This document shows positions 1 through 31,626 of a stretch of 64,000 bases of DNA, piece by piece (position 1 is the stretch's first letter; every line of letters starts with the position of its first letter). The stretch is taken from positions 3,215,283-3,279,282 of the forward strand of contig NZ_KK073872.1 of the NCBI RefSeq assembly GCF_000585335.1, in the 5' to 3' direction. The stretch comes from Cloacibacillus evryensis DSM 19522. Lineage in GTDB: Bacteria; Synergistota; Synergistia; Synergistales; Synergistaceae. The notes beneath the pieces were generated by a model. That model saw only the letters and a program-made list of their open reading frames with translations, was not told where the DNA came from and made no database searches. A program made the position numbers and the translations under genes.

Positions 1-352
1 GGCTGCATAGGTAGTTGGCCCCGATGAGCGCCGTGGGCGGCAGGCCGATGGGCATCGCCGAAAATATGAGGAAACCCGTGAGCCTCCCCATGCCGGAGCC
101 GAAGGCCTGCCGCGCGTAGGCGGCGATCCCTCCCGAGTCCGGGTAGCGCGAGGACATCTGAGCGATCGCGGCGAGCATCGGCAGAGAGATGAGCCCCATC
201 AGCAGCCAGCTCACGAGCGAAGCGGGCCCGGCTATTTCCGCGGCGATCGCCGGAAGCACCAGTATTCCCGCGCCGATGACGGCGCCGATGGTCATCGCCG
301 TCCCTTGAAGCCAGGTTATGCTTTTCCTAAGTTCTCCTCTGCCGCCAGCCAT
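1..352 (-). CDS. Amino acid permease, APC superfamily (N-terminal part; runs off the left edge)
   Basis: The first 117 codons of a membrane transporter are visible on the minus strand. The protein starts MAGGRGELRKSITW and goes straight into a first membrane segment with the motif GAVIGAGILVLPA, the glycine-rich unwound TM1 typical of APC amino acid transporters. A second segment (SWLLMGLISLPMLAAIA) and the family motif YPDSGGIAAYARQAFG follow. It should act in the inner membrane as an amino acid/proton symporter or exchanger (YjeH-like). The start at 352 has an AAGGGAG ribosome site about 12 bases upstream. The substrate cannot be told from this fragment. The gene points away from the hydrogenase operon's end and shares its direction. 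Confidence 0.8.
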   Translation of the reverse strand, partial: MAGGRGELRKSITWLQGTAMTIGAVIGAGILVLPAIAAEIAGPASLVSWLLMGLISLPMLAAIAQMSSRYPDSGGIAAYARQAFGSGMGRLTGFLIFSAMPIGLPPTALIGANYLCS

Positions 353-423
353 TTATACCATCACTCCCTTGCCTCTAATGACGATCATACTGTGTTTTTG
401 GTCCGCGGCATCATTAGTAGTAT

Positions 424-449
424 AAGGGAGAGGCCGAAGCCTCTCCCTT
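424..449 (-). terminator. Terminator-like hairpin after the hydrogenase operon
   Basis: AAGGGAGAGGC (424-434) and GCCTCTCCCTT (439-449) form an 11-bp perfect stem. Read on the minus strand the loop is TTCG closed by C-G, the very stable UUCG tetraloop. No strong T-run follows, so termination may be imperfect. It lies between hydA and the permease gene, both on the minus strand. Confidence 0.6.
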
Positions 450-484
450 TATATGACGCGCGTATTGCTGATTGTTGCGAATGG

Positions 485-2230
485 CTAGATCTCTCTCGGC
501 TGTGCGCTGTAATGCGTATGGAGAAGATGGTGCGACTTCTCGCCGAGCGGTTTGCCAAGCCATTTCTCATAGAGGGCGACGATGTCGGGGTTCTTGTGCG
601 ACTGGCGCAGCGTTTTGCACTCGTCTTCACGGTAGACGGCAGCCGTGCGGGCCGCGCGGATCTCCGCGTTGACGGGCTGGGGCTGTCCGCCCCCGCCGAT
701 GCAGCCGCCGGGGCAGGCCATGACTTCAATGAAGTGATAGTCGGCTTCGCCGGCGCGAATTTTGTCCATGAGGATCTTCGCGTTTTTCAGCGTATGGGCG
801 ACCGCGAGTTTGACGGTGACGGTCTGTCCGCCCACCGGAACGTCGACGGAGGCCTCTTTGATGCCCTCCATGCCGCGCACGGGCTGGAAGATGATCCCCG
901 GGATGTCCTTGCCTTCGTTGAGGACGGCGTAGACGGTGCGGAGGGCCGCCTCCATAACGCCGCCGGTGACGCCGAAGATGACCGCGGCGCCGGTCGACGA
1001 ACCAAGCGGGCTGTCATAGTCCTCTTCGGGGAGGTTTTTGAAGTCGATGCCGGCGTTCTTGATCATGCGCGCAAGCTCGCGTGTCGTGAGAACGGTGTCC
1101 ACATCGGGTATTCCGGGATTGCTCTGGAGCTGCGGGCGCACGCACTCGGCCTTTTTCGCGGTGCAGGGCATGATGGAGACGCTGTAGATGTCCTCAACAG
1201 GGATCCCCTGCGTTTCGGGCCAGTAGGTCTTCGCGAGGGCGCCGAACATTCCCTGCGGCGATTTCGCCGTCGAGAGATGCGGCAGGAGGTCGGGATATTT
1301 GATTTCGATGAAGTTGATCCAACCCGGCGAGCAGGATGTGATCATCGGCAGCACGCCGCCGTTGACGACGCGGTCAAGGAATTCGTGTCCCTCTTCCATG
1401 ATCGTGAGGTCGGCGGAGAAGTCGGTGTCGAATACTTTGTCGAATCCGAGGCGGCGCAGAGCGGCGACCATTTTGCCGGTCACGATCTCACCGGCGGGCA
1501 GGCCGAGCGCTTCGCCGAGGGCGACGCGCGTCGCGGGAGCGGTCTGGACGATGGTGTATTTTTTCGGGTCGGCGAGGGCGGCGAAGACCTTCTCGGTGTC
1601 GTCGCGCTCACAGATGGCTGCCGTCGGGCAGACGGCGGCGCACTGTCCGCAGTATGTGCAGGCGACCTTGTCAAGTCCGTAGCCGAAGGCGGGCTCGACG
1701 ATCGTTTTGAAGCCGCGGTTCACAAAGCCGTAGACGTCAAGGCCCTGACGCTCGTGGCAGGCTCTTATGCAGCGTCCGCAGAGAATGCACTTGTTGGGAT
1801 CGCGGACAAGGCTCGGGTTGCTCTCGTCTTTCACGGCGGAGCGGGTCGCGCCCTTGTACGGGACCTCGCGGATGCCGAGGTCGGCGGCCGTCTGCTGAAG
1901 TTCGCAGTCCTGGTTCTTCTGACAGAAGAGGCAGTCCTGCGGGTGGTTCGCGAGAAGGAGCTCGACGACCGCTTTGCGGGTCTCGCGCACCTTCGGTGTG
2001 TTTGTATGAACGACCATGCCGTCCGCTACGGGGTAGACGCAGGCTGCGCCGAGTCCGCGGCCGCCGACGATCTCAACTACGCAGACGCGGCAGGCGCCCT
2101 CTTTGGAAAGCTCCGGGTGATAGCAGAGCTGAGGAATGCGGATTCCGGCTTTGGCAGCGGCTTCGATCACGGTAAAATCGGATGGCACCTCTACTGTTAT
2201 GCCGTCTATTGTAACCTTAACAAGTTCCAT
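485..2230 (-). CDS. hndD: [FeFe]-hydrogenase catalytic subunit (HydA/HndD type)
   Basis: This 581-residue protein is the H-cluster subunit of a multimeric cytoplasmic hydrogenase, reducing protons to H2 or oxidising H2. Visible domains in order: an N-terminal [2Fe-2S] domain (C36, C47, C50, C64); a His-Cys3 [4Fe-4S] site (H96, C100, C103, C109); two [4Fe-4S] ferredoxin motifs (CILCGRCIRAC, CTYCGQCAAVC); then the H-cluster signatures TSCSPGW, MPCTAKKAE and MACPGGCIGGGGQP. This is the group A architecture found in trimeric and tetrameric NAD(P)-linked or electron-bifurcating enzymes. It is the last gene of hndABCD, 31 bases after hndC. Whether it bifurcates with ferredoxin or uses NAD(P)H alone cannot be decided from sequence. 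Confidence 0.95.
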   Translation of the reverse strand: MELVKVTIDGITVEVPSDFTVIEAAAKAGIRIPQLCYHPELSKEGACRVCVVEIVGGRGLGAACVYPVADGMVVHTNTPKVRETRKAVVELLLANHPQDCLFCQKNQDCELQQTAADLGIREVPYKGATRSAVKDESNPSLVRDPNKCILCGRCIRACHERQGLDVYGFVNRGFKTIVEPAFGYGLDKVACTYCGQCAAVCPTAAICERDDTEKVFAALADPKKYTIVQTAPATRVALGEALGLPAGEIVTGKMVAALRRLGFDKVFDTDFSADLTIMEEGHEFLDRVVNGGVLPMITSCSPGWINFIEIKYPDLLPHLSTAKSPQGMFGALAKTYWPETQGIPVEDIYSVSIMPCTAKKAECVRPQLQSNPGIPDVDTVLTTRELARMIKNAGIDFKNLPEEDYDSPLGSSTGAAVIFGVTGGVMEAALRTVYAVLNEGKDIPGIIFQPVRGMEGIKEASVDVPVGGQTVTVKLAVAHTLKNAKILMDKIRAGEADYHFIEVMACPGGCIGGGGQPQPVNAEIRAARTAAVYREDECKTLRQSHKNPDIVALYEKWLGKPLGEKSHHLLHTHYSAQPREI

Positions 2231-20020: not shown

Positions 20021-20362
20021 CGGCGAGGTGATGTGAACGTTAATTGCAGCGCAGGCCGCAGGATAAAAACTATCTGCGTCTGGTATTGCTGTATCCCGGT
20101 GATAAATTGATGGTGCAATGTCTGCTGCTTCATCAGAATTTATCACGTTCTTATGCAGAACGGCTATCTTTCAGTCTCATATCTTGCTATTGAAAGGAAC
20201 GTTTCGAGAACTTGGAGATTAAGGGGAGACGAGGATCATGGACTTTGGCTTGATGGCCTGCATAATAACTTAAGAACGGCATGTAGTCAATTATAAATTT
20301 TTAAAAAGTTGACAACGGCGCGGCGGGCGCGGCCGATTTTTTATGCGAAAGGAAAAACAAAG

Positions 20363-20575
20363 ATGGATAAAGACAACGAAGAGATAGTATGCTGGTGCTC
20401 CAGCGTCACAAGGGGCGAAATCATAAAGGCGATCGAAGCGGGAGCTTCGTCGCTGGACGACATACGCAGCGCGACCGGCGCATGCACCGTAGGCCGCTGC
20501 CGCGAGCTGAGCCCGAAGAAGCGCTGCTGCGCGCCGGATATCGCCAAGATCTTAAAGGAATTCGGGAAGGCCTGA
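20363..20575 (+). CDS. Small BFD-like [2Fe-2S] protein
   Basis: A 70-residue protein with the BFD (bacterioferritin-associated ferredoxin) cysteine arrangement: EIVCWCSSVTRGEIIKAI, later TGACTVGRC and RCCAPDI. BFD-like domains bind a [2Fe-2S] cluster and often serve as small electron carriers or fused domains of larger oxidoreductases. The ATG at 20363 follows a GAAAGG site. It is convergent with the NifU-like gene, 17 bases away, and lies next to the molybdenum-hydroxylase operon, so a role in cluster delivery or electron transfer to that enzyme is plausible but unproven. Confidence 0.78.
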   Translation: MDKDNEEIVCWCSSVTRGEIIKAIEAGASSLDDIRSATGACTVGRCRELSPKKRCCAPDIAKILKEFGKA

Positions 20576-20592: not shown

Positions 20593-20997
20593 TTATAAAA
20601 CGCCGGTCCCGCGGCGGCTGGAATAATTTACCACGGCCCGTTTCAGCGCAAGCTCCGCCATGAGCGCGCAGTGTATGTGCGCTTTATCCAGCTCTCCGTC
20701 GTCGCTGAGAAGCGCGCCGATATCTTCGAGGCTTACGGCGTATGCCGCGAGCGCCGGTTTGCCCAGAGCAAGCGAGACCGCTGCGGCGGCGCTGGCGTAA
20801 AGCGCTGAGCATGCGCTCTTTGTCACGCTGTATCCGGCGGCAGTTACGATCTGCCGTTGGTTGACCGTCAGGCTGATTCGCAGCAGGTCGCGGCAGTTTA
20901 TCTCTTTAGCCTCTCCGCAGCCGTTCGCGTCCGCAGGGACTATCCTGTATGAGCCGGCTTCGGCCAGCTGCGCCACTTTTTCTATATTTGTCGCCAT
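20593..20997 (-). CDS. NifU/IscU-like iron-sulfur scaffold protein
   Basis: A 134-residue protein whose three cysteine motifs fall in the order expected for the NifU N-terminal scaffold domain: INCRD, KSACSAL, and HIHCALMAELALK. The overall pattern (cluster ligands, alanine/serine-rich helix, K/H-C near the end) matches IscU/NifU, though divergence is high. It would assemble [2Fe-2S] or [4Fe-4S] clusters. It is the last gene of the molybdenum-hydroxylase operon, 86 bases after the flavoprotein gene, which suggests a scaffold dedicated to that enzyme. The start at 20997 has GAGGAG upstream; a longer frame from 21042 lacks one. Confidence 0.65.
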   Translation of the reverse strand: MATNIEKVAQLAEAGSYRIVPADANGCGEAKEINCRDLLRISLTVNQRQIVTAAGYSVTKSACSALYASAAAAVSLALGKPALAAYAVSLEDIGALLSDDGELDKAHIHCALMAELALKRAVVNYSSRRGTGVL

Positions 20998-21083
20998 ATC
21001 GAATATCTCCTCGTTATTTGCGTTTTGGCGGTCCGCCGGCAATAAAAACAGATGGGGAGGGATTACGCCTCCCCGTCTGCGAA

Positions 21084-23459
21084 CTACTGCCTAAGCGCCT
21101 CTATCGAGCGCCGAACCATCGTCTTTGCGATGTCGATCTTATAGGAATTGTATTTGAGCGGTATCGCGCCCTTCAGCGCCAGTTCTGCGGCTTCGGCGGT
21201 CACGCTGTCGTCCGGGGTTTTGCCGACGAGGAATTTTTCCGCCTCGACGGCGCGGCGCGGTACGGGCGACGCCGCTCCGAGCACGATCTTTGCGTCGCTT
21301 ATCCTGCCGTCGGACAGCGTGTATACGGAGGCTACCGCCAGTATGGCGAAGTCGATGGAATCGCGCAGCCTGTATTTGTTGTAGGCGGCCTTTGCGCCCG
21401 CGGCGGGGCGCGGCACGACGATCTCCGTTACGATTTCTCCAGGCAGCAGCACGTCTTTGACGCGCGTCTTCACGCTTAAAAGTTCTTCGGCGCTGAGCGT
21501 GCGCATGCTCGTTTTTACAGAAGCGCCGTATGCCGTAAGCATGTTGGCCATGTCGCTGCAGTTTACGGCAAGGCAGCCGCAGTTGAAGCAGCGCAGCGAC
21601 TCTTCGTGCGCCTCGTCCGGCATGAAGCCGCACTGGTCCTCGCTGTCGATGCCGCGCTGCTCGACGGGCAGAGTCTTCGGATGTCCCGCGTGCGCGCGGC
21701 CTTCCACTCCCGCTTCAAACGAGACGAGCTGACGCTTCACTCTGCCGCTCGCCGCCGCTTCCACAGGCAGCGCGCCGCCTCCGCAGTATTCGTTGATTGA
21801 GAGCGCCGTCTCTTTTCCCGCCGCGATGGCCGCGATGACCGTGGCCGGCCCCGAGGTGACGTCTCCCGCCGCGAAGATGCCGGGAACGGAGGTCGTATAA
21901 TCCGAATCCGCCGTTACGCGGCCGCGCTGCGTCTCTACTCCGAAAGCGCCGTCCAGGAAGTCGAGGTCGGAACGCTGCCCGATCGCCATCATTATCATGT
22001 CCGCTTCGCACGACAGCGTGCGGCTTTCGTCGTAGCAAGGATTGAAGCGGCCCGTCTTGTCGAGCACGCTGACGCAGGATTTGAATATTATTCCCGAAAC
22101 GTCATCGCCAGCCCTGTTTATGGACAACGGGCCCCAGCCGTTGCATATATCCACGCCCTCTTCGACGGCGTGCGCTGTCTCTTCGGCGTTCGCCGGCATG
22201 TGCTCGCTGTCCTCGAGGCACACCATCCGCACGTTTTCCGCGCCGAGGCGCTTTGCGGTGACGGCCACGTCTATCGCGACATTTCCGCCGCCCACGACGA
22301 CCACGTTCCGCGGCATTTTTTCGCGCATGTAGCGGTTCACTTCAACGAGGAAATCCAGGCCGAAGCGCGTAAGCTCCTCGCCGGCGAGCCCGATCAACGG
22401 GCGCTTCCAGCAGCCGGTGTCAAGCATCACGCTGTCGCTGTCCGCGACTAATCCGTCAAGCGACACATCCTCGCCGACATGAACGCCGCAGTGTATCCGA
22501 ACGCCCATCTCTTTCAGCGCGGATACGAATTTCCGCACGATATCCTTAGGCAGGCGGTACGGCGGTATCGCGTAGGTCAAGCAGCCTCCTGCCTCCGGCT
22601 GGCGTTCGTATACATCCACGCAGTAGCCGGCCTGCCGCAGATAATATGCGGCGGTGAGGCCGGCGGGGCCGGAGCCGGCGATGGATACGTGCTTTCCGTT
22701 TTCCCGCGCGGGACCCTGCATGAAGTCCTTGCTGTGCTCGAGGATATGATCTCCGAGGAAACGCTCCACAGAACCGACGTTCAGCGTCTCGTCGTATTTG
22801 TTCCGGTTGCAGTTCTCCATGCAGAAGTGGGCGCATACTCTGCTCGTCACGGCAGGCATCGGATTTACTTCCATAATGACGCGGGCGGCCTCGTCAGTTT
22901 TGCCGGCGCGCATGAGCGCCATGTAGGCGGAGATGTCCGTATGTGCCGGGCAATTGTCTGTGCAGGGCGTCACGCAGACCTTTGCCGCGCCGAATATTGA
23001 ATGGTAGCGGTTCTCGCCCATCATGGCGGAGCAGAGATGCCCCTCTTTGCGGGCGCAGTTGACGCTGCCGCCAAGAGAGTTCGGATAGCGGTAATACCAG
23101 CAGCGTATGTCCTGGCAGATATTGCCTCCTACGGTGGCGGAAGAGCGGATATTCGGACTGGCGACGGAGTATGCGGCGTCCGCCAGCGCGCCCCAGCTTT
23201 CGCGGACGATCCCGCTGGCGCTTATGTCTGCAAGCGTGGCGGCCGCGCCCAGGTGAAGGCCGTCTGTCTCTTCTCTGATGGAGTCGAGTCCCTTCACGTT
23301 TTTAAGACTTATCACCCGATCTGGATATGCGGGCAGCAGCTTTTCTTTCAGAACGCCGACAAGGTCCGTGCCCCCGGCTGAAAGTACGGAGCCTTCTTCT
23401 TTCAGCAGCGCGGAGGCCTCCTCCAGCGTTTCCGGCGCAATATAAGCGAAAGGCTTCAT
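21084..23459 (-). CDS. Molybdenum-hydroxylase FAD subunit with an embedded GltD-type oxidoreductase
   Basis: A 791-residue fusion of unusual layout. Residues 1-158 are the FAD-binding half of a xanthine-dehydrogenase-type medium subunit (SAGGTDLVGVLKEKLL; SSATVGGNICQDIRC; cysteines C120, C135, C143). At NRYHSIFG the sequence switches to a glutamate-synthase-small-subunit-like module: a cysteine-rich [4Fe-4S] N-terminus (CVTPCTDNCPAHTDIS, CAHFCMENC), two dinucleotide folds (SIAGSGPAGLTAAYYL at about 260; VVVGGGNVAIDVAV at about 390) and AAGDVTSGPATV. From about residue 624 (CFNCGCLAVNCSD) it returns to the medium-subunit C-terminal domain. It would move electrons between the hydroxylase's clusters and NAD(P)H or ferredoxin. 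Its ATG directly follows the large-subunit stop. Confidence 0.85.
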   Translation of the reverse strand: MKPFAYIAPETLEEASALLKEEGSVLSAGGTDLVGVLKEKLLPAYPDRVISLKNVKGLDSIREETDGLHLGAAATLADISASGIVRESWGALADAAYSVASPNIRSSATVGGNICQDIRCWYYRYPNSLGGSVNCARKEGHLCSAMMGENRYHSIFGAAKVCVTPCTDNCPAHTDISAYMALMRAGKTDEAARVIMEVNPMPAVTSRVCAHFCMENCNRNKYDETLNVGSVERFLGDHILEHSKDFMQGPARENGKHVSIAGSGPAGLTAAYYLRQAGYCVDVYERQPEAGGCLTYAIPPYRLPKDIVRKFVSALKEMGVRIHCGVHVGEDVSLDGLVADSDSVMLDTGCWKRPLIGLAGEELTRFGLDFLVEVNRYMREKMPRNVVVVGGGNVAIDVAVTAKRLGAENVRMVCLEDSEHMPANAEETAHAVEEGVDICNGWGPLSINRAGDDVSGIIFKSCVSVLDKTGRFNPCYDESRTLSCEADMIMMAIGQRSDLDFLDGAFGVETQRGRVTADSDYTTSVPGIFAAGDVTSGPATVIAAIAAGKETALSINEYCGGGALPVEAAASGRVKRQLVSFEAGVEGRAHAGHPKTLPVEQRGIDSEDQCGFMPDEAHEESLRCFNCGCLAVNCSDMANMLTAYGASVKTSMRTLSAEELLSVKTRVKDVLLPGEIVTEIVVPRPAAGAKAAYNKYRLRDSIDFAILAVASVYTLSDGRISDAKIVLGAASPVPRRAVEAEKFLVGKTPDDSVTAEAAELALKGAIPLKYNSYKIDIAKTMVRRSIEALRQ

Positions 23460-25838
23460 TTATTTGCCCTCCTTTGCTTTTAATGCGGCCAATACTTTGG
23501 CCGGTGTGATGGGATAATCGTTTAGTTTTACGCCGAGCGCGCCGTAAAGCGCCATGCGTATCGCGGGCGCGCCCGGCGAGAGCAGCGGTTCTCCGGTTCC
23601 GAACGCACCGAAGGGGCATGACGTTTCGCGCCCTTTGTTGCTTTCAAGAATTATATGGTCGTGCGGCACAACGTCGTTGAACGTGCGTGTCTTGTAATCT
23701 ATGTTGCTGGGGTTCAGCACGCGGAAATCGTTGGGATCCCAGATCGTCTCTTCCATGCAGGCGATATCGACGCCGGCGTAGAAGGATTGCACCTGATTGC
23801 GCAGCGGCAGCGGGTTGATGATGACGCCCGCGTCGGAGCCGCCGAAATGATCGATGATGCGGAACGTTCCCATCTCCCTGTCGGCCTCGACCTCGACGCA
23901 CTGCAGGTGGAAAATGGTGCCGTTGTCCGTGCCGTCGAAATGGCCGCAGCCGGTAACTCCGTCCACCTTGCCCATGAGCTGCGGAAAGAGCGAATATTTC
24001 GTCTCCGGATCTGAAAGGCGGTAGACATAGCAGTCTTTGAAACCGAGATCGTCAATGGGAACGCCGAATCTTTCGTTCGTAAGCGCAAAGAGCTTTTTCT
24101 TCAGGTCGCGGCAGGCGCGCAGCATGGCGGTGCCTCCGCAGTATGTGGAACGGGAGGCGGTGGAGCCGAATTCCGGCGGTGCCGAGTTCGTGTCGGAGGG
24201 GCTCACGCGGATGCGCTCGATGGGGATGTCAAGCTCCTCGGCGCAGATCTTCTGCTGCACCTCGCGGATGCCGGAACCGAATTCCGTCATCATCGTGGAG
24301 ATATAGACTCCGCCCAAGGCGGTGATGGTGACGTTTGCGTTGGAGGGGCGTTCCGCGGTGTCAGAGTGTCCGCACGAGCATACGCCGATGCCGCGGGAGA
24401 AACGCCCGTCCTTGGAGACCCATGTGGGCTTGCCCCAGCCCGGCCAACGTTCCTTCCAACGGAATGCGGCGGCCGTTTCGCGCACGAGGTTCTTCCAGTC
24501 GCATGTGACGTTGTACTGCCAAAAATGCGGGCCGGCCATAGGGTTGTAATAGCGTTCTCCGAGCCCCATCGCATTCTTTTCGATAAAGACCATTGGGTCG
24601 AGGTCGGCTTTCTCGCAGGCCTCGAATATTGCCTGCGTAACCAGCAGCGTGCTTTCCAAATATCCGTAGCCGCGGAACGATCCGGAGGGAACGTGATTTG
24701 TGACCACCACCGAGCCGTCATATTTTTTGCTGGGAGGGTTCATGACGATGGACATGGTGTTCGTTCCGACCTGCATCATAAATTCCTGCGTGCTCGCGCA
24801 GGCGCCGGCGTCGGAGTATTGGCGCATGCTAATGGCAAGCGGGGAACCGTCTTTCTTCATTCCGAATTTTATGTGGCTCTGTGTGCGCATACGCGTCTGA
24901 TGCGCTCCGAAGTGCTCCTCTTTGCTGTAAGCGTAAAAGACGGGGCAGTTTGCGGCCTTCGACATTAGCGCGGCGTATATCAGCACATGGACGTTGCCGC
25001 TGTACAGCTTCGAACCGAAGGAGCCGCCGACGGCGGGCGTAAAGATGCGCACGTTCTCATACGGTATGTCCAGAGACGTGGCGACGTTCTGCTGGCAGTA
25101 CGACGGCGTGGCGGCCGAAGCGATAAAGGACACGTCCTCGCCGCTCCAGTCGGCGATGATCACGGGCGACTCCAACGGCAAAGGATTCTGTCCGCTGTTG
25201 AGGGCTGTGTCGAGCTCTACGACGACGTCCGATTCGGCAAAGCCGGACTCGACGTCTCCGACCTCAAAGTTGAGATTCACCTTATGCGGGGCGATGTTGC
25301 CCGGGAATTCCGGGAAGAGCTGCGGCGCGCCGTCTGCAATGGCCTCGTCTATAGTGAACACCGGCTTGTATTCCTCGTACTCCACCTCGATCAGCGCCAT
25401 GGCCTCGTCTGCGATATCGGCTGTCGTAGCTACGATCAGCGCAACGGCGTCGCCGACGTAGCGGACGCACTCGTTGAGGATGCGGTAATGCTTGGGCGGC
25501 GTGAAGCCGTTTGTGATGAAAACGTTGTCCGGAATGTCCTTGTATGTCACGACCGCCGTGACGCCCGGCAGCGCCTTCGCCTTTTCGGCGTTGATGGAGA
25601 CGATGCGGCCGAAGGGGATCGGGCTCCTCAAAACTTTGCCGTACTGCATCATCGGCAGCGTGAAATCGCCCGTATACCTCAGCTTGCCCGTGACGATCTC
25701 GTCTCCTTTGATGCGTTTGGTCTCCTTGCCGATATAGCGCATATTCTGCTTCGGTATCTCAAATGTTTGGTCTATCTTGTAGCTTTCAGACTCTATCAGC
25801 GCTCTGGCCGGATTATAAGAACTTTTGACCTCGCTCAT
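23460..25838 (-). CDS. Molybdopterin-binding subunit of a xanthine-dehydrogenase-family hydroxylase
   Basis: A 792-residue catalytic subunit. It has the conserved N-terminal MRYIGKETKRIKGDEIVTGK, the molybdopterin-contact motif GGSFGSKL, the arginine-containing loop GSFRGYGYLEST, and the C-terminal catalytic glutamate motif GTGEPLLSPGAPA. No in-frame UGA occurs. The ATG at 25838 overlaps the small-subunit stop as ATGA and has GGAGGG upstream, so the longer frame to 26198 is spurious. Substrate is uncertain: purine (xanthine or a related heterocycle) is favoured by the ureide-pathway genes elsewhere in the window, but nicotinate- or aryl-type substrates are possible. Confidence 0.88.
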   Translation of the reverse strand: MSEVKSSYNPARALIESESYKIDQTFEIPKQNMRYIGKETKRIKGDEIVTGKLRYTGDFTLPMMQYGKVLRSPIPFGRIVSINAEKAKALPGVTAVVTYKDIPDNVFITNGFTPPKHYRILNECVRYVGDAVALIVATTADIADEAMALIEVEYEEYKPVFTIDEAIADGAPQLFPEFPGNIAPHKVNLNFEVGDVESGFAESDVVVELDTALNSGQNPLPLESPVIIADWSGEDVSFIASAATPSYCQQNVATSLDIPYENVRIFTPAVGGSFGSKLYSGNVHVLIYAALMSKAANCPVFYAYSKEEHFGAHQTRMRTQSHIKFGMKKDGSPLAISMRQYSDAGACASTQEFMMQVGTNTMSIVMNPPSKKYDGSVVVTNHVPSGSFRGYGYLESTLLVTQAIFEACEKADLDPMVFIEKNAMGLGERYYNPMAGPHFWQYNVTCDWKNLVRETAAAFRWKERWPGWGKPTWVSKDGRFSRGIGVCSCGHSDTAERPSNANVTITALGGVYISTMMTEFGSGIREVQQKICAEELDIPIERIRVSPSDTNSAPPEFGSTASRSTYCGGTAMLRACRDLKKKLFALTNERFGVPIDDLGFKDCYVYRLSDPETKYSLFPQLMGKVDGVTGCGHFDGTDNGTIFHLQCVEVEADREMGTFRIIDHFGGSDAGVIINPLPLRNQVQSFYAGVDIACMEETIWDPNDFRVLNPSNIDYKTRTFNDVVPHDHIILESNKGRETSCPFGAFGTGEPLLSPGAPAIRMALYGALGVKLNDYPITPAKVLAALKAKEGK

Positions 25839-26350
25839 TTTGCGGCCCTCCTTTGTTCTACGTATGCCATAATGGATTCCACGGCGGAGTAATGCGTTCC
25901 GCAGCGGCAGTAGTTTCCTGCCAGCGCCTCGCGCACCTCTTCCTCGGTGGGCAGCTCCTCCCTCTCCAGCAGAGCCTGAGCGCTCATGATCACGCCCGGA
26001 GTGCAGAAGCCGCACTGATAGCCGCAGTGATCCACGAACGACTGCTGTAAGGCGCTCAGCCGGCCTGTCGCGGCGTCCGCGAGACCCTCGATGGTCACGA
26101 TCTCCGCCTCGTCGCAGTCCAGCGTAAGCGTCATGCAGCTCATTACCGGCTTTTTGTTGAGGATCACCGTACACGCGCCGCACGCGCCCTGCCCGCACCC
26201 CAGCTTTACGCCGGTGCAGCCGACGCGGTTCCGCAGAGTATCTGCCAGCAGTTCGTTTTCGGGCATATCGTTCTGCCCGTCTCCGATGGTAAAGCTGTAT
26301 GATCGCCTGTTTACTGTCAGGGTGATTGTCTTTACGGTCCTTTCTTTCAT
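25835..26350 (-). CDS. [2Fe-2S] small subunit of the molybdenum hydroxylase
   Basis: A 171-residue iron-sulfur subunit of the CoxS/XdhC-small-subunit type. The plant-ferredoxin-like cluster motif KLGCGQGACGACTV and C72 come first; the second cluster is bound by CGYQCGFCTPG and NYCRCG. It transfers electrons from the molybdenum site to the flavoprotein. It is the first of three subunit genes (small, large, medium), overlapping the large subunit by four bases, and follows the MFS gene by 129 bases on the same strand. Length and motifs are normal for the family. Confidence 0.92.
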   Translation of the reverse strand: MKERTVKTITLTVNRRSYSFTIGDGQNDMPENELLADTLRNRVGCTGVKLGCGQGACGACTVILNKKPVMSCMTLTLDCDEAEIVTIEGLADAATGRLSALQQSFVDHCGYQCGFCTPGVIMSAQALLEREELPTEEEVREALAGNYCRCGTHYSAVESIMAYVEQRRAAK

Positions 26351-26479: not shown

Positions 26480-27766
26480 CTAAGCGTTTGCCACGGCCTG
26501 CCGCGCCGTCTTTGCCCTGACGGGCAGCCGCATGGCGGCGACGGCGGATTCTCTGCTCGCAAGAAGTATCGATATAAGAGCCGCCGCCAACAGCACGCAG
26601 AAAAGCATCCACACCGGCATATAGCTGCCGACCACGCCGTTTACCGTCTGTGAGTCGAGCATAGCGCCCGTCACGATCGGGACGGCGACGTTCGAGCTCT
26701 GGAATATGAGGCACTGTATCGACGTAGTGGTCGCGGCGTATCGGTCGCCGCCAATATTGACGGCCCAATAGGCGAGGTGGGTGCCGGCCATGTTTGAAAA
26801 GAGGCCGAAAAAGACGGAGGTCATAAGCAGCGTTGAGAACGAGCGCTGCAGCGAGAAGGCCAGCAGCGTGACGATCATCATCGCAAAAACCGCGGCGCTG
26901 CAGGTCTTGGGATCGATCTTAAAGCGCTTGCCGAGAAAACCCGAACCGATAGAGCCGGCAATGGAAAAAATGCTGAACGCAGTGACTATCAGCCCCGCCT
27001 GCATCACGGTGAGCCCCGCGCCTCCCGGAGCTGCGCCGGTAATGAAGCGGTTTGCCCACGTTATGTAGCCGGCCGGGATCCCCATGAAGAAAAAACCTGC
27101 AACGGAGATGATAAGTATCTGCCTGTTGGTAAAATAATTTTTTATGCCGGCGGTAAAACTCGTCCTGTCGCCGCTTACGGCCTCCGCCTGCTTCGGCTCG
27201 CGCACTACGGCCAGCACCAGCAGCGCGATGACGGCGATGGTAAAGGCCGAAGCCTGAAAAGCGCCGCGCCAGCCTCCGCCCGCAAGAGCGAGCGGCGCCA
27301 GCTGATTGGCGATAAGAGAGCCGAGAGACGGAGAGGCAAGCAGTATGCCGAAAGCCACGCCGCGCTCCTGCGGCTCAAAATAATTTGACAGAAGCCTCGA
27401 ACAGAAAGCCATGATCCCGCCGCTGAAAAGGCCTCCGCAGACGCGATATACGCAGCCTGAAGAAAAATCCTGAGCATAAGCCATAGCCAGAGTGAGCGCA
27501 GCCACCCCCATCACCGAAGCGAACAGCAAATATTTGACGCGAAACTTATCGGCAAGAAAGCCGCCTGGGATCTGCGTCACGAGATAGCCGATATAAAACG
27601 CGGCCATGAGGCTGCCAGCCTCCGCCATGCTGATGCCAAGATCGGGGGCTGCGGCGGACAGCACCGGAGCCCAAATAAACCGACTGACAAACGTGCTTGT
27701 GAACGCCAATACCAGGACCGCCAGGATCAGCCAGCGATAAATATTATTTTTCTCTTTTGTTTCCAT
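26480..27766 (-). CDS. MFS transporter
   Basis: A 428-residue major facilitator with twelve predicted membrane segments. It begins YRWLILAVLVLAFTSTFVSRF and carries the MFS loop motif GGFLADKFRVKYLL between TM2 and TM3, with a central loop of about 30 residues near residue 195-220. The sequence style resembles anion/organic-acid symporters of the ACS/NNP-like groups. It heads the same minus-strand row as the molybdenum hydroxylase, so it probably imports that enzyme's substrate. The promoter region upstream carries a long inverted repeat and a divergent TetR regulator. Confidence 0.85.
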   Translation of the reverse strand: METKEKNNIYRWLILAVLVLAFTSTFVSRFIWAPVLSAAAPDLGISMAEAGSLMAAFYIGYLVTQIPGGFLADKFRVKYLLFASVMGVAALTLAMAYAQDFSSGCVYRVCGGLFSGGIMAFCSRLLSNYFEPQERGVAFGILLASPSLGSLIANQLAPLALAGGGWRGAFQASAFTIAVIALLVLAVVREPKQAEAVSGDRTSFTAGIKNYFTNRQILIISVAGFFFMGIPAGYITWANRFITGAAPGGAGLTVMQAGLIVTAFSIFSIAGSIGSGFLGKRFKIDPKTCSAAVFAMMIVTLLAFSLQRSFSTLLMTSVFFGLFSNMAGTHLAYWAVNIGGDRYAATTTSIQCLIFQSSNVAVPIVTGAMLDSQTVNGVVGSYMPVWMLFCVLLAAALISILLASRESAVAAMRLPVRAKTARQAVANA

Positions 27767-28044: not shown

Positions 28045-28103
28045 GTTTGTGAGCCTTGTCAATAGTATGTTGAAATATGGCCGAAAGAGGTGAAAAAAAA
28101 CTT

Positions 28104-28760
28104 ATGGGATCAATACGGGCAGAGCGGGCGGACGAATTGAGAAAAGACATTCTGGACGTCGCGGAAAAAATGTTTCACGATTACGGATACGCGGGGGCGA
28201 CGTTTCAGAAGATAGCGGAAACGCTGGGCATCACAAAAGGCGCGATAACATATCATTTTAAAAACAAGCATCTGATAATGGCGGAACTGGTAGAGATTTT
28301 TTTCATCGGCATCCGCAACTTTATCGACGCACATCCCGAATATTACCGCAACGCTTACTGGCGGTACAGCGTGATGTACATCTACGCTTACCGCATCATA
28401 ATGTCAAAACGCAGCTTTCAGGAACTTTTTTATCAGGAAGACCAGATCGTGCTGTGGGATAACGTGCTGTCAAAAAAATTAAAATTCGTTTACGAAAATA
28501 TCGCGAGAGATTTCGGCAAGTCCTTTACGGAGGACGAATTGCTGGTAACCGCCGTAATGGACCTGGGAGCCAGAAGGAACATGTACCATCTTTACATGAA
28601 GATACCGGGGCTCGACAGCATAGATAAATTTTGCCGCAGCCACGTCTATATGATAGGATGCCTAAGCAGGCTGGATGAGGCGACGATCCGCGAGAACATA
28701 AAATACGCCTTCGAGTTCACCGACGCCTTTGAGCTGCCTCCTTTACCTCTCTTTTGGTGA
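28104..28760 (+). CDS. TetR-family regulator of the molybdenum-hydroxylase locus
   Basis: A 218-residue regulator with the TetR helix-turn-helix: DILDVAEKMFHDYGYAGATFQKIA then LGITKGAITYHFKNKHLI. The C-terminal part is rich in aromatic residues (YYRNAYWRYSVMYIYAYRI), suggesting a pocket for an aromatic or heterocyclic ligand. It is divergent from the MFS-hydroxylase genes and next to the 26-bp inverted repeat, so it probably senses the substrate or a product. The start at 28104 follows AGAGGTG; an ATG at 28077 has no ribosome site. A terminator follows at 28841. Confidence 0.88.
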   Translation: MGSIRAERADELRKDILDVAEKMFHDYGYAGATFQKIAETLGITKGAITYHFKNKHLIMAELVEIFFIGIRNFIDAHPEYYRNAYWRYSVMYIYAYRIIMSKRSFQELFYQEDQIVLWDNVLSKKLKFVYENIARDFGKSFTEDELLVTAVMDLGARRNMYHLYMKIPGLDSIDKFCRSHVYMIGCLSRLDEATIRENIKYAFEFTDAFELPPLPLFW

Positions 28761-30563: not shown

Positions 30564-31626
30564 TTACCGCTGTCTGTTACGTAGTAACGCCGGCGTTAGA
30601 AGAACGTCCTCCGGCGAAACAGGCGAAGCGCCCAGCAAGCGGAGAGTCTCCTCTCCATGAAGAAAGCTGAACACCTCATAAGAGAAGATCGGCCGTTCAG
30701 CTTTCTCCTTAATAATGGGTTGATGTTGTTCGACAGCAGCTGCATATCGGCCTGGTCAAGATCATCGACGCTTGTTCCCTTCGGAAGCACCTTGCGTATC
30801 TGCTCATGGTTGTTCTCTATGGATCACTTTTGGACGGTTCGCAGTAAAAGACACGGCACGGCCTGTCCGCGCCACTGCCAAGCTCCAACGCCGCAGGGTC
30901 GGTAAATTCGCTGCCGTTGTCCGTAAGGATGACGGGGAAAAGCTCAACATAGAGTTCGCGCCCAAGGCGTCGGTATAAATCATTGAATATGCTGGAGGCA
31001 GACTTTGCAGTATTGGCATCGCGCAGATAGACCAGCATCAGCAGAGAATCCAGGAAATGGATCGTGAGCATTACCTTTCCTCCGACCCTGCCGTCCACGG
31101 AGTCGATCTCAACTATAGGAGTATCCGGGTGCGCCGCCATAAACGCATTGAAATCGCTGTACTCGCGTCCTTCTCTGCACTTGGGATCAACCTTGAAGTT
31201 CTGCTTTGACTGACGCGGCAGACGCCTGCGGACTTTGCGCGGAAGGTCCAGGTTTATCGCGTCAAACTTATTTCCGTCAATATAATTGTATATAGTCTTC
31301 TCCGAACACATCAGCGAATCCTTTTCAGACTGCCAGATATGATAGACCGACTGTCCCCGTTTTATGCGCGGGGAGATGATGTCGTTCAGTCGTTTCAGCT
31401 CCTCGTTGGAAGCCGTTATGCACTGTCTTGACTTCGACAGCACTGCTGCAGCCTCTTTCTCAGCGGGCAATGGCTCGTAATCCGCTTCAACACAACTCAC
31501 AACATCTTCATCGAGGGGGTTGACAATCACTCCGTTTGTATCTAAAATCTCACGCATTGAAAGACAACCAGCTTGAAACATCAGGAAGGAGGCAATGGGA
31601 CATGACGAATAAGACAACAAGAACAT
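30564..31626 (-). pseudogene. IS30-family transposase, broken by frameshifts
   Basis: Most of an IS30-type DDE transposase is visible: IISPRIKRGQSVYHI, SEKTIYNYIDGNKF, EIDSVDGRVGGKVMLTIHF (first Asp) and LTDNGSEF (second Asp). A stop at 30817 interrupts after CEPSKSDP. The protein then resumes in another frame with ENNHEQIRKVLPKG (catalytic Glu) and on to NGRSS, shifts again near 30680-30690, and continues YEVFSFLHGEETLRLLG to the final stop at 30564. The first break fits a deletion of about 14 bases where the family has SDPYQKGS. The N-terminal helix-turn-helix is also disturbed beyond 31500. The element cannot move by itself. Confidence 0.85.

Follow-up and report, generated by a model that had tools for sequence, protein, structure and literature searches.

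A gene of Cloacibacillus evryensis DSM 19522 raises the question of how one redox enzyme comes to lie within the chain of another, and what the combined protein would do. The gene is located on the minus strand of a 64,000-nucleotide stretch of contig NZ_KK073872.1 (positions 3,215,283 to 3,279,282, referred to below as the window), and encodes the flavin adenine dinucleotide (FAD) subunit of a xanthine oxidase (XO)-family molybdenum (Mo) enzyme, interrupted by a GltD-type module. The protein is probably the nested medium subunit of a three-subunit Mo enzyme of the 4-hydroxybenzoyl-CoA reductase (HBCR)/PaoB type, in which an NAD(H)–FAD–2×[4Fe-4S] module, inserted once in the cluster loop, would serve as a built-in NADH donor. 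The gene and its parts are as follows:

21084..23459, minus strand: nested gene, 791 residues, FAD subunit of an XO-family Mo enzyme with an inserted GltD-type module (from the frame, Pfam, NCBIfam and solved relatives)
22983..23459, minus strand: host part 1, residues 1–159, FAD_binding_5 and cysteines C120, C135 and C143 of the HBCR/PaoB-type [4Fe-4S] loop
21579..22982, minus strand: insert, residues 160–627, Fer4_20 cysteines C166, C170, C209, C213 and C217, FAD and predicted NAD(H) Rossmann domains, and the closing pair C624-x2-C627
21087..21578, minus strand: host part 2, residues 628–791, fourth loop cysteine C629 and CO_deh_flav_C

The 791-residue frame runs uninterrupted from an ATG at 23459 to a stop at 21084. 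The domain search proposed in a preliminary description, made from the DNA letters and their open reading frames, found four domains in one chain (FAD_binding_5 3–116, Fer4_20 163–242, Pyr_redox_2 257–548, CO_deh_flav_C 693–787), with FAD_binding_5 and CO_deh_flav_C both above their Pfam cut-offs, placing the protein among XO-family medium (FAD) subunits. That description had the subunit break off at NRYHSIFG and resume at CLAVNCSD (residues 150–157 and 629–636), and this arrangement was confirmed by the Pfam domains, by alignments with un-nested relatives, and by 43 proteins nested at one site. Un-nested relatives align to residues 1 to ~159 and from ~628 on, and in most of them the two host pieces abut with few residues between (positions 158 and 162 in an un-nested sibling). 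The cysteine-rich GltD-like insert thus spans residues 160–627, and the earlier estimate of about 465 residues was refined to ~468. At the insertion site un-nested siblings read, for example, NRYHSIFGG...GCYAVHPSD, in keeping with the HAIFG and C-x-AVHPSD motifs that had been quoted for ordinary family members.

That the nested frame arose from faulty assembly or annotation, or from a fusion occurring by chance in a single genome, can practically be dismissed. The 43 distinct nested proteins, gathered from gut Bacillota and the window's phylum, share an identical insertion site and keep all ligand cysteines, no nested row of the genome surveys contains an internal stop, and several proteins lie in complete genomes, among them the complete chromosome of [Clostridium] asparagiforme DSM 15981 (CP102272); the artefact reading was rejected on these 43 proteins with one site. 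The nested architecture is real, conserved and uncommon, a variant of the XO-family medium subunit. No description of it was found in print in the PMC open library, outside of which most subscription papers lie; in PMC6147048 (in part), a GltD fusion is given for the DMSO-reductase family, whereas the XO-family entry is '-'.

The insert sits between the third and fourth cysteine of the host [4Fe-4S] loop. Un-nested siblings carry all four loop cysteines, which in L026 follow the pattern C-x14-C-x8-C-x17-C, and match C122, C138, C146 and C155 of HBCR (counted in the alignment with 1rm6_B), which we take from the HBCR structure to be cluster ligands. The corresponding C120, C135, C143 and C629 are kept in 43/43 nested proteins, in the same order as in 1rm6_B and with the first two spacings similar, pointing to a medium subunit of the HBCR/PaoB type, and are predicted to bind the host cluster. 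The last cysteine pair of the module ends two residues before the fourth loop cysteine (C624-x2-C627-G-C629), the closing motif RC-x2-CGC continuing straight into C629. Altogether 11 ligand-type cysteines (C120, C135, C143, C166, C170, C209, C213, C217, C624, C627 and C629) are present in every nested protein. In the tree the host part grouped with four-cysteine HBCR/PaoB-like subunits and not with the plain xanthine dehydrogenase (XDH) type, so of the xanthine-dehydrogenase medium subunit described earlier, the assignment as an XO-family FAD subunit held, while a plain XDH or YgfM-like host gave way to a PaoB/HBCR-type subunit with an extra [4Fe-4S] loop.

HBCR beta (1rm6_B) shares with the host part the FAD-subunit fold and the extra [4Fe-4S] loop, and the large and small subunits of the two enzymes are related; HBCR differs in lacking a nested module, in using reduced ferredoxin as its electron source (PMC12771579, in part), and in a sequence similarity that is moderate and under the NCBIfam cut-off. 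PaoB of E. coli PaoABC (5g5g_B), which carries the stretch ...HAVVG..AC-IATHPSD, and the medium subunit of the Methylobacillus aldehyde oxidase (5y6q_B) share the host fold and the loop cysteines, and lack the insert. An AlphaFold2 (AF2) model was built with 25 sequences, un-nested siblings among them. The discontinuous host part of the model (1..791) was aligned over nearly the entire medium subunits of known enzymes (VIA-align), the best matches being 5y6q_B (Z 35.0, root-mean-square deviation (rmsd) 2.4, 315 aligned) and PaoB (Z 33.4, 303 aligned), with HBCR beta at Z 32.5 and 307 aligned; residues 161–627 matched 9bov_A 99–566 (Z 36.3, rmsd 3.3, 414 aligned). The host fold is modelled as closing around the insert, which is partly expected since the AF2 alignment contained un-nested siblings.

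Within the insert, Fer4_20 (64 bits) and Pyr_redox_2 (122 bits) both exceeded their cut-offs, identifying a GltD/Nfn/Stn-type module. The closest solved relatives were NfnA (9n5u, 9bov) and StnC (8oh5), followed by the NfnB-type 4ylf and 5jca. The RCxxC pair follows the Rossmann domains, an order shared with 9bov and 8oh5 but not with 4ylf, and the insert terminates in an EAxRCxxCGC resembling the C-terminal one of 9bov and 8oh5. StnC (Sporomusa StnABC, 8oh5_C) and Nfn-ABC subunit A (9bov_A, 9n5u_A) are thus its best match, having the same GltD-type FAD/nicotinamide module with two clusters and the same C-terminal motif; in them the module belongs to NuoG-like transhydrogenase subunits and reads YRR (NADP(H) type), whereas in the nested protein it sits in a Mo-enzyme flavoprotein and reads CLE. 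The preliminary description had instead related the chain to YgfK and YgfM of E. coli. These are, as it stated, a GltD-like and an FAD-subunit protein encoded by separate genes (b2878 and b2880) of one Mo hydroxylase locus (PMC2276186, in part), but the insert has closer relatives than YgfK, scoring 395 bits with PRK12771 and 255 bits with YgfK, neither reaching its cut-off (for YgfK, TIGR03315, the match covered only 162–637 against a cut-off of 835.3). A YgfK/YgfM origin as the closest relation was rejected on the NCBIfam scores and the tree.

The two clusters of the module are predicted to be held by C166/C217/C624/C627 and by C170/C209/C213 with E232; E232, Y301 and R302 are kept in 43/43 nested proteins. 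Where the second beta strand of the nicotinamide Rossmann fold ends, the solved NADP(H)-type relatives printed read YRR in 5/5 cases, and the nested proteins carry E416, mostly as CLE, in 40/43, at the place of RR. Because E416 (CLE) replaces this YRR, the insert likelier prefers NAD(H) over NADP(H). The two flavin-type domains, added iron–sulphur clusters and nicotinamide link proposed earlier were all supported.

The genome count that the preliminary description had called for showed an uncommon form. A pattern scan of a genome contig collection gave 53 loci, among which L014–L024 (11 loci, gut Bacillota; L023 cut by a contig end) were nested; nearly all others were un-nested subunits of ~320 residues from Desulfobacterota-type, Chloroflexota and Acidobacteriota genomes, and L047 and L057 matched through the GltD part. 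Nested genes were present in 3/60 genomes of relatives and 5/185 genomes of the window's phylum (the window's own, with one copy, counted in both), in 6/299 genomes of the family of Enterocloster asparagiformis (itself counted; one match covers only residues 1–444), in 4/391 of a class-wide draw around Angelakisella (itself counted), and in 10/17 genomes of the genus of E. asparagiformis, which itself carries three copies. A second genome of the window's genus had no nested copy at E 1e-100, and among 72,556 plasmid records no match covered 80% of the query at E 1e-60, the single plasmid match covering 59% of the query in the GltD part only.

One host tree was calculated from 42 nested host parts, 42 un-nested four-cysteine subunits and 17 subunits without the four-cysteine loop, after dropping the nested row L023 for length and excluding un-nested frames longer than 480 residues; this tree and that of the inserts were quick trees with long-branch warnings, and the un-nested set was pattern-gathered and not exhaustive. 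The nested host parts formed one side of a branch adjoining the four-cysteine group (SH-aLRT 99), the inserts formed one side against eight other GltD-type proteins (SH-aLRT 97), and host and insert distances were correlated (Mantel r 0.67, 0/999 permutations as high, n = 42). Since the host parts form one clade, the tree suggests that the module was inserted once, and since rows from the window's family and from Bacillota interleave, it also suggests transfer between phyla.

The genes surrounding the nested gene in the window are the following:

23460..25838, minus strand: large Mo subunit, 792 residues from an ATG at 25838 (a longer GTG frame is possible to 26198), nearest solved relative HBCR alpha
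25835..26350, minus strand: small subunit, 171 residues, two [2Fe-2S]-type domains
20593..21042, minus strand: NifU_N-like protein directly downstream, three NifU-type cysteines kept, present in the closest (type A) nested operons
26480..27766, minus strand: MFS transporter preceding the subunit genes, shared by most type A operons
28077..28760, plus strand: TetR-type regulator, divergently oriented, retained by several type A operons

The large-subunit gene ends directly before the nested ATG, which is preceded at short distance by an AGGAGG-like stretch; at its other end, the large-subunit gene starts within the last nucleotides of the small-subunit gene. Using a large-subunit query trimmed at the N-terminus, a large subunit was found directly upstream in 31/33 nested genes with flanks; it was split into two frames in L099 and L106, and was unseen in L100, cut by the contig end. 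The nested gene of L097 (7470–10370), which has diverged furthest (38%), is preceded by a gene for the small subunit, and no large Mo subunit was seen in its stretch. In type A operons the large subunit is 43–72% identical to that of the window, mostly accompanied by the MFS and often by the TetR and NifU-like genes, and in type B operons it is 31–36% identical. Besides the window, the NifU-like gene was found in 8/33, all type A (L014, L015, L017, L018, L019, L020, L024 and L099). Among solved relatives of the large subunit HBCR alpha was closest (243 bits, against 172 for the next). The three subunits stayed below the equivalog cut-offs of both HBCR (TIGR03193/03194/03195; 153.5, 326.3 and 132.4 against 257.8, 994.55 and 404.55 bits) and XdhABC (NF043082/NF043083/NF043084; 365/780, 126/310 and 144/217 bits).

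The sequences themselves show how the domains are ordered, that the insert lies between loop cysteines 3 and 4, which cysteines are invariant, and that small and large subunits share the operon; a predicted electron chain, with its putative ligands and nicotinamide cofactor, can be drawn on this basis: NADH – insert FAD – [4Fe-4S] – [4Fe-4S] – host [4Fe-4S] – host FAD – 2×[2Fe-2S] – Mo. In the reductive direction, the nested module would replace the soluble ferredoxin donor of HBCR by a covalent NADH donor, and the favoured role would be to strip a hydroxyl reductively from an aromatic substrate, by which a gut anaerobe living by fermentation would regenerate NAD+. HBCR takes reduced ferredoxin, and the related gut dehydroxylase Ucdh takes NADH (PMC12771579, in part). 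The position of nested operons beside an inferred ucd operon, and once beside a UbiD/UbiX-type set (in L091, UbiD and a UbiX-type flavoprotein lie upstream of the nested operon), hints at phenolic substrates. If this wiring is right, it would account for the use of NADH by an HBCR-type Mo enzyme, and uncharacterised gut operons near newly described urolithin dehydroxylase genes would be marked as likely NAD(H)-linked, aromatic-modifying enzymes. The protein is a clear natural case of one redox enzyme nested in another at a metal-binding loop, in which the host cluster loop closes only across the inserted module. More tentatively, and at somewhat less than an even chance, the nested proteins may form a family of gut Mo reductases whose hard-wired NADH module, joined via the [4Fe-4S] loop, turned ferredoxin-driven into NADH-driven dehydroxylation of dietary aromatics, the several paralogues per genome serving different substrates.

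Several observations weigh against a reductive enzyme with a built-in NADH donor. Identity between the large subunit and HBCR alpha amounts to only ~28%, less than that between the large subunit and un-nested XO enzymes of the same genomes (up to 37%). PaoABC and the Methylobacillus enzyme oxidise aldehydes, and since the host subunit in PaoABC is of this [4Fe-4S] type as well, the host cluster is no proof of reduction. Three of the 43 nested proteins carry C/F-R-K in place of CLE, and are perhaps NADP(H) users. The AF2 model is middling (pLDDT 74.9, pTM 0.68), with pLDDT below 50 in the cluster loop 115–147, for which reason the ligand assignments rest on sequence only. The same wiring could also run in the opposite direction, as an NAD+-dependent hydroxylase in which a heterocycle or aldehyde is oxidised with water at Mo and its electrons pass through the nested module to NAD+, a substantial possibility that nonetheless falls short of probable. 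The Glu that is catalytic in the XO family is kept in the large subunit (alignment), the NCBIfam score of that subunit is as high for XdhA (365 bits) as for HBCR alpha (326), and maturation genes known from hydroxylases lie near several nested operons (MocA/DVU_1551-like near L015, L017, L020, L091, L092, L094 and L155; XdhC-like near L014 and L024). The insert, however, is less needed for oxidation, since ordinary XDH-type FAD subunits reach NAD+ without such a module. Most XO-family enzymes hydroxylate, according to the available part of PMC10420851, yet the nearest solved large subunit is that of the reductive HBCR, and ucd and UbiD/UbiX-type genes are found in the neighbourhood. On this evidence, reductive dehydroxylation is slightly favoured over NAD+-linked hydroxylation.

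Electron bifurcation or confurcation, which the preliminary description had raised, would mean that electrons from NADH divide at the insert FAD, some entering the Mo chain and others passing to ferredoxin, or that NADH and reduced ferredoxin feed in together. Two flavins and three predicted [4Fe-4S] clusters would allow it, and by alignment R302 and the proximal-cluster Glu (E232) match the bifurcating NfnB residues named in PMC10482914 (in part). The two residues, although kept in the nested proteins, are not diagnostic of bifurcation: the Arg is also found in StnC, which has the same module type and is non-bifurcating according to the same source. The genes adjoining nested genes included no conserved partner of the ferredoxin, Etf or HydBC type, and the BFD-like gene of the window lies on the other strand and is without counterpart at other nested loci, leaving bifurcation improbable and without positive evidence. 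The BFD-like [2Fe-2S] protein, at 20309–20575 on the plus strand, stands beside the operon; no counterpart was found beside the other nested genes.

It was also considered seriously whether the nested enzyme is itself the known urolithin C dehydroxylase, and this was judged very unlikely. Ucdh of E. bolteae is a urolithin C 9-dehydroxylase of the XO family, with HBCR as its closest characterised relative (32.7% identity, 49.2% similarity) and NADH as its donor in vitro; homologues above 90% are reported in E. asparagiformis and E. hominis, all others being below 60% (PMC12771579, in part). Likeness to the nested enzyme thus extends to a three-subunit, HBCR-related XO-family enzyme of gut anaerobes with an NADH donor, in the shared genus Enterocloster. 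One operon of E. asparagiformis fits Ucdh, its large subunit being 32.9% identical and 49.7% similar to HBCR alpha, and that subunit has 96–98% identity to those of four other genomes of the genus (5/17 with E. asparagiformis), the next being at 53%; we infer that this operon encodes Ucdh. It differs in that its FAD subunit, of 288 residues and XdhB-like by NCBIfam, is a plain one that lacks both the cluster loop and the insert; Ucdh itself is therefore most likely un-nested and would reach NADH another way. Between the large subunit of the window and that inferred for Ucdh, identity is 27%, far from the >90% expected of Ucdh members. A type A operon as Ucdh was likewise rejected: the type A large subunit of E. 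asparagiformis and that of the window share 67% identity, and the available part of PMC12771579 reports no Ucdh homologue above 60% outside Enterocloster. In 3/5 genomes a nested operon of one subtype adjoins the inferred ucd operon (L092/L152, L153 and L154), in a fourth (L155) one of another subtype lies ~7 kb downstream, and in the fifth (L156) no nested operon was found in a 12-kb stretch of a 27.7-kb contig.

Selenium dependence, considered from the neighbouring genes, was set aside: among 32 stretches carrying nested genes, a yqeB-like gene was present in L106 alone, and no yqeC-like gene was found. The un-nested Smithella operon (L026:9021-12172) is followed by XdhC-, YqeB-, YqeC- and MocA-type genes, a set tied to selenium-dependent Mo hydroxylases. 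Variants of the nested arrangement were seen at three loci: two tandem nested operons, each with its own small and large subunit (L101:5720-16741); small and large Mo subunits as one 985-residue frame upstream of the nested gene, the small part recognised by eye (L108:7569-10526); and a shortened 525-residue relative directly after an intact nested gene (L093:11337-12914), which keeps the cluster-loop and Fer4_20 cysteines and an RCLNCSC motif, but in which a nicotinamide Rossmann motif is not clearly recognisable and most of the FAD_binding_5 part is missing. The window's own genome holds another XO-type operon (large, FAD and small subunits; L109:2519-10727), followed by an 824-residue protein with a GltD-like C-terminal half, whose start resembles by eye an old-yellow-enzyme reductase; a similar start was seen beside XO genes of L130. 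A frame at 30817–31626 of the window (minus strand) resembles, as an impression from sequence, part of an IS30-type transposase.

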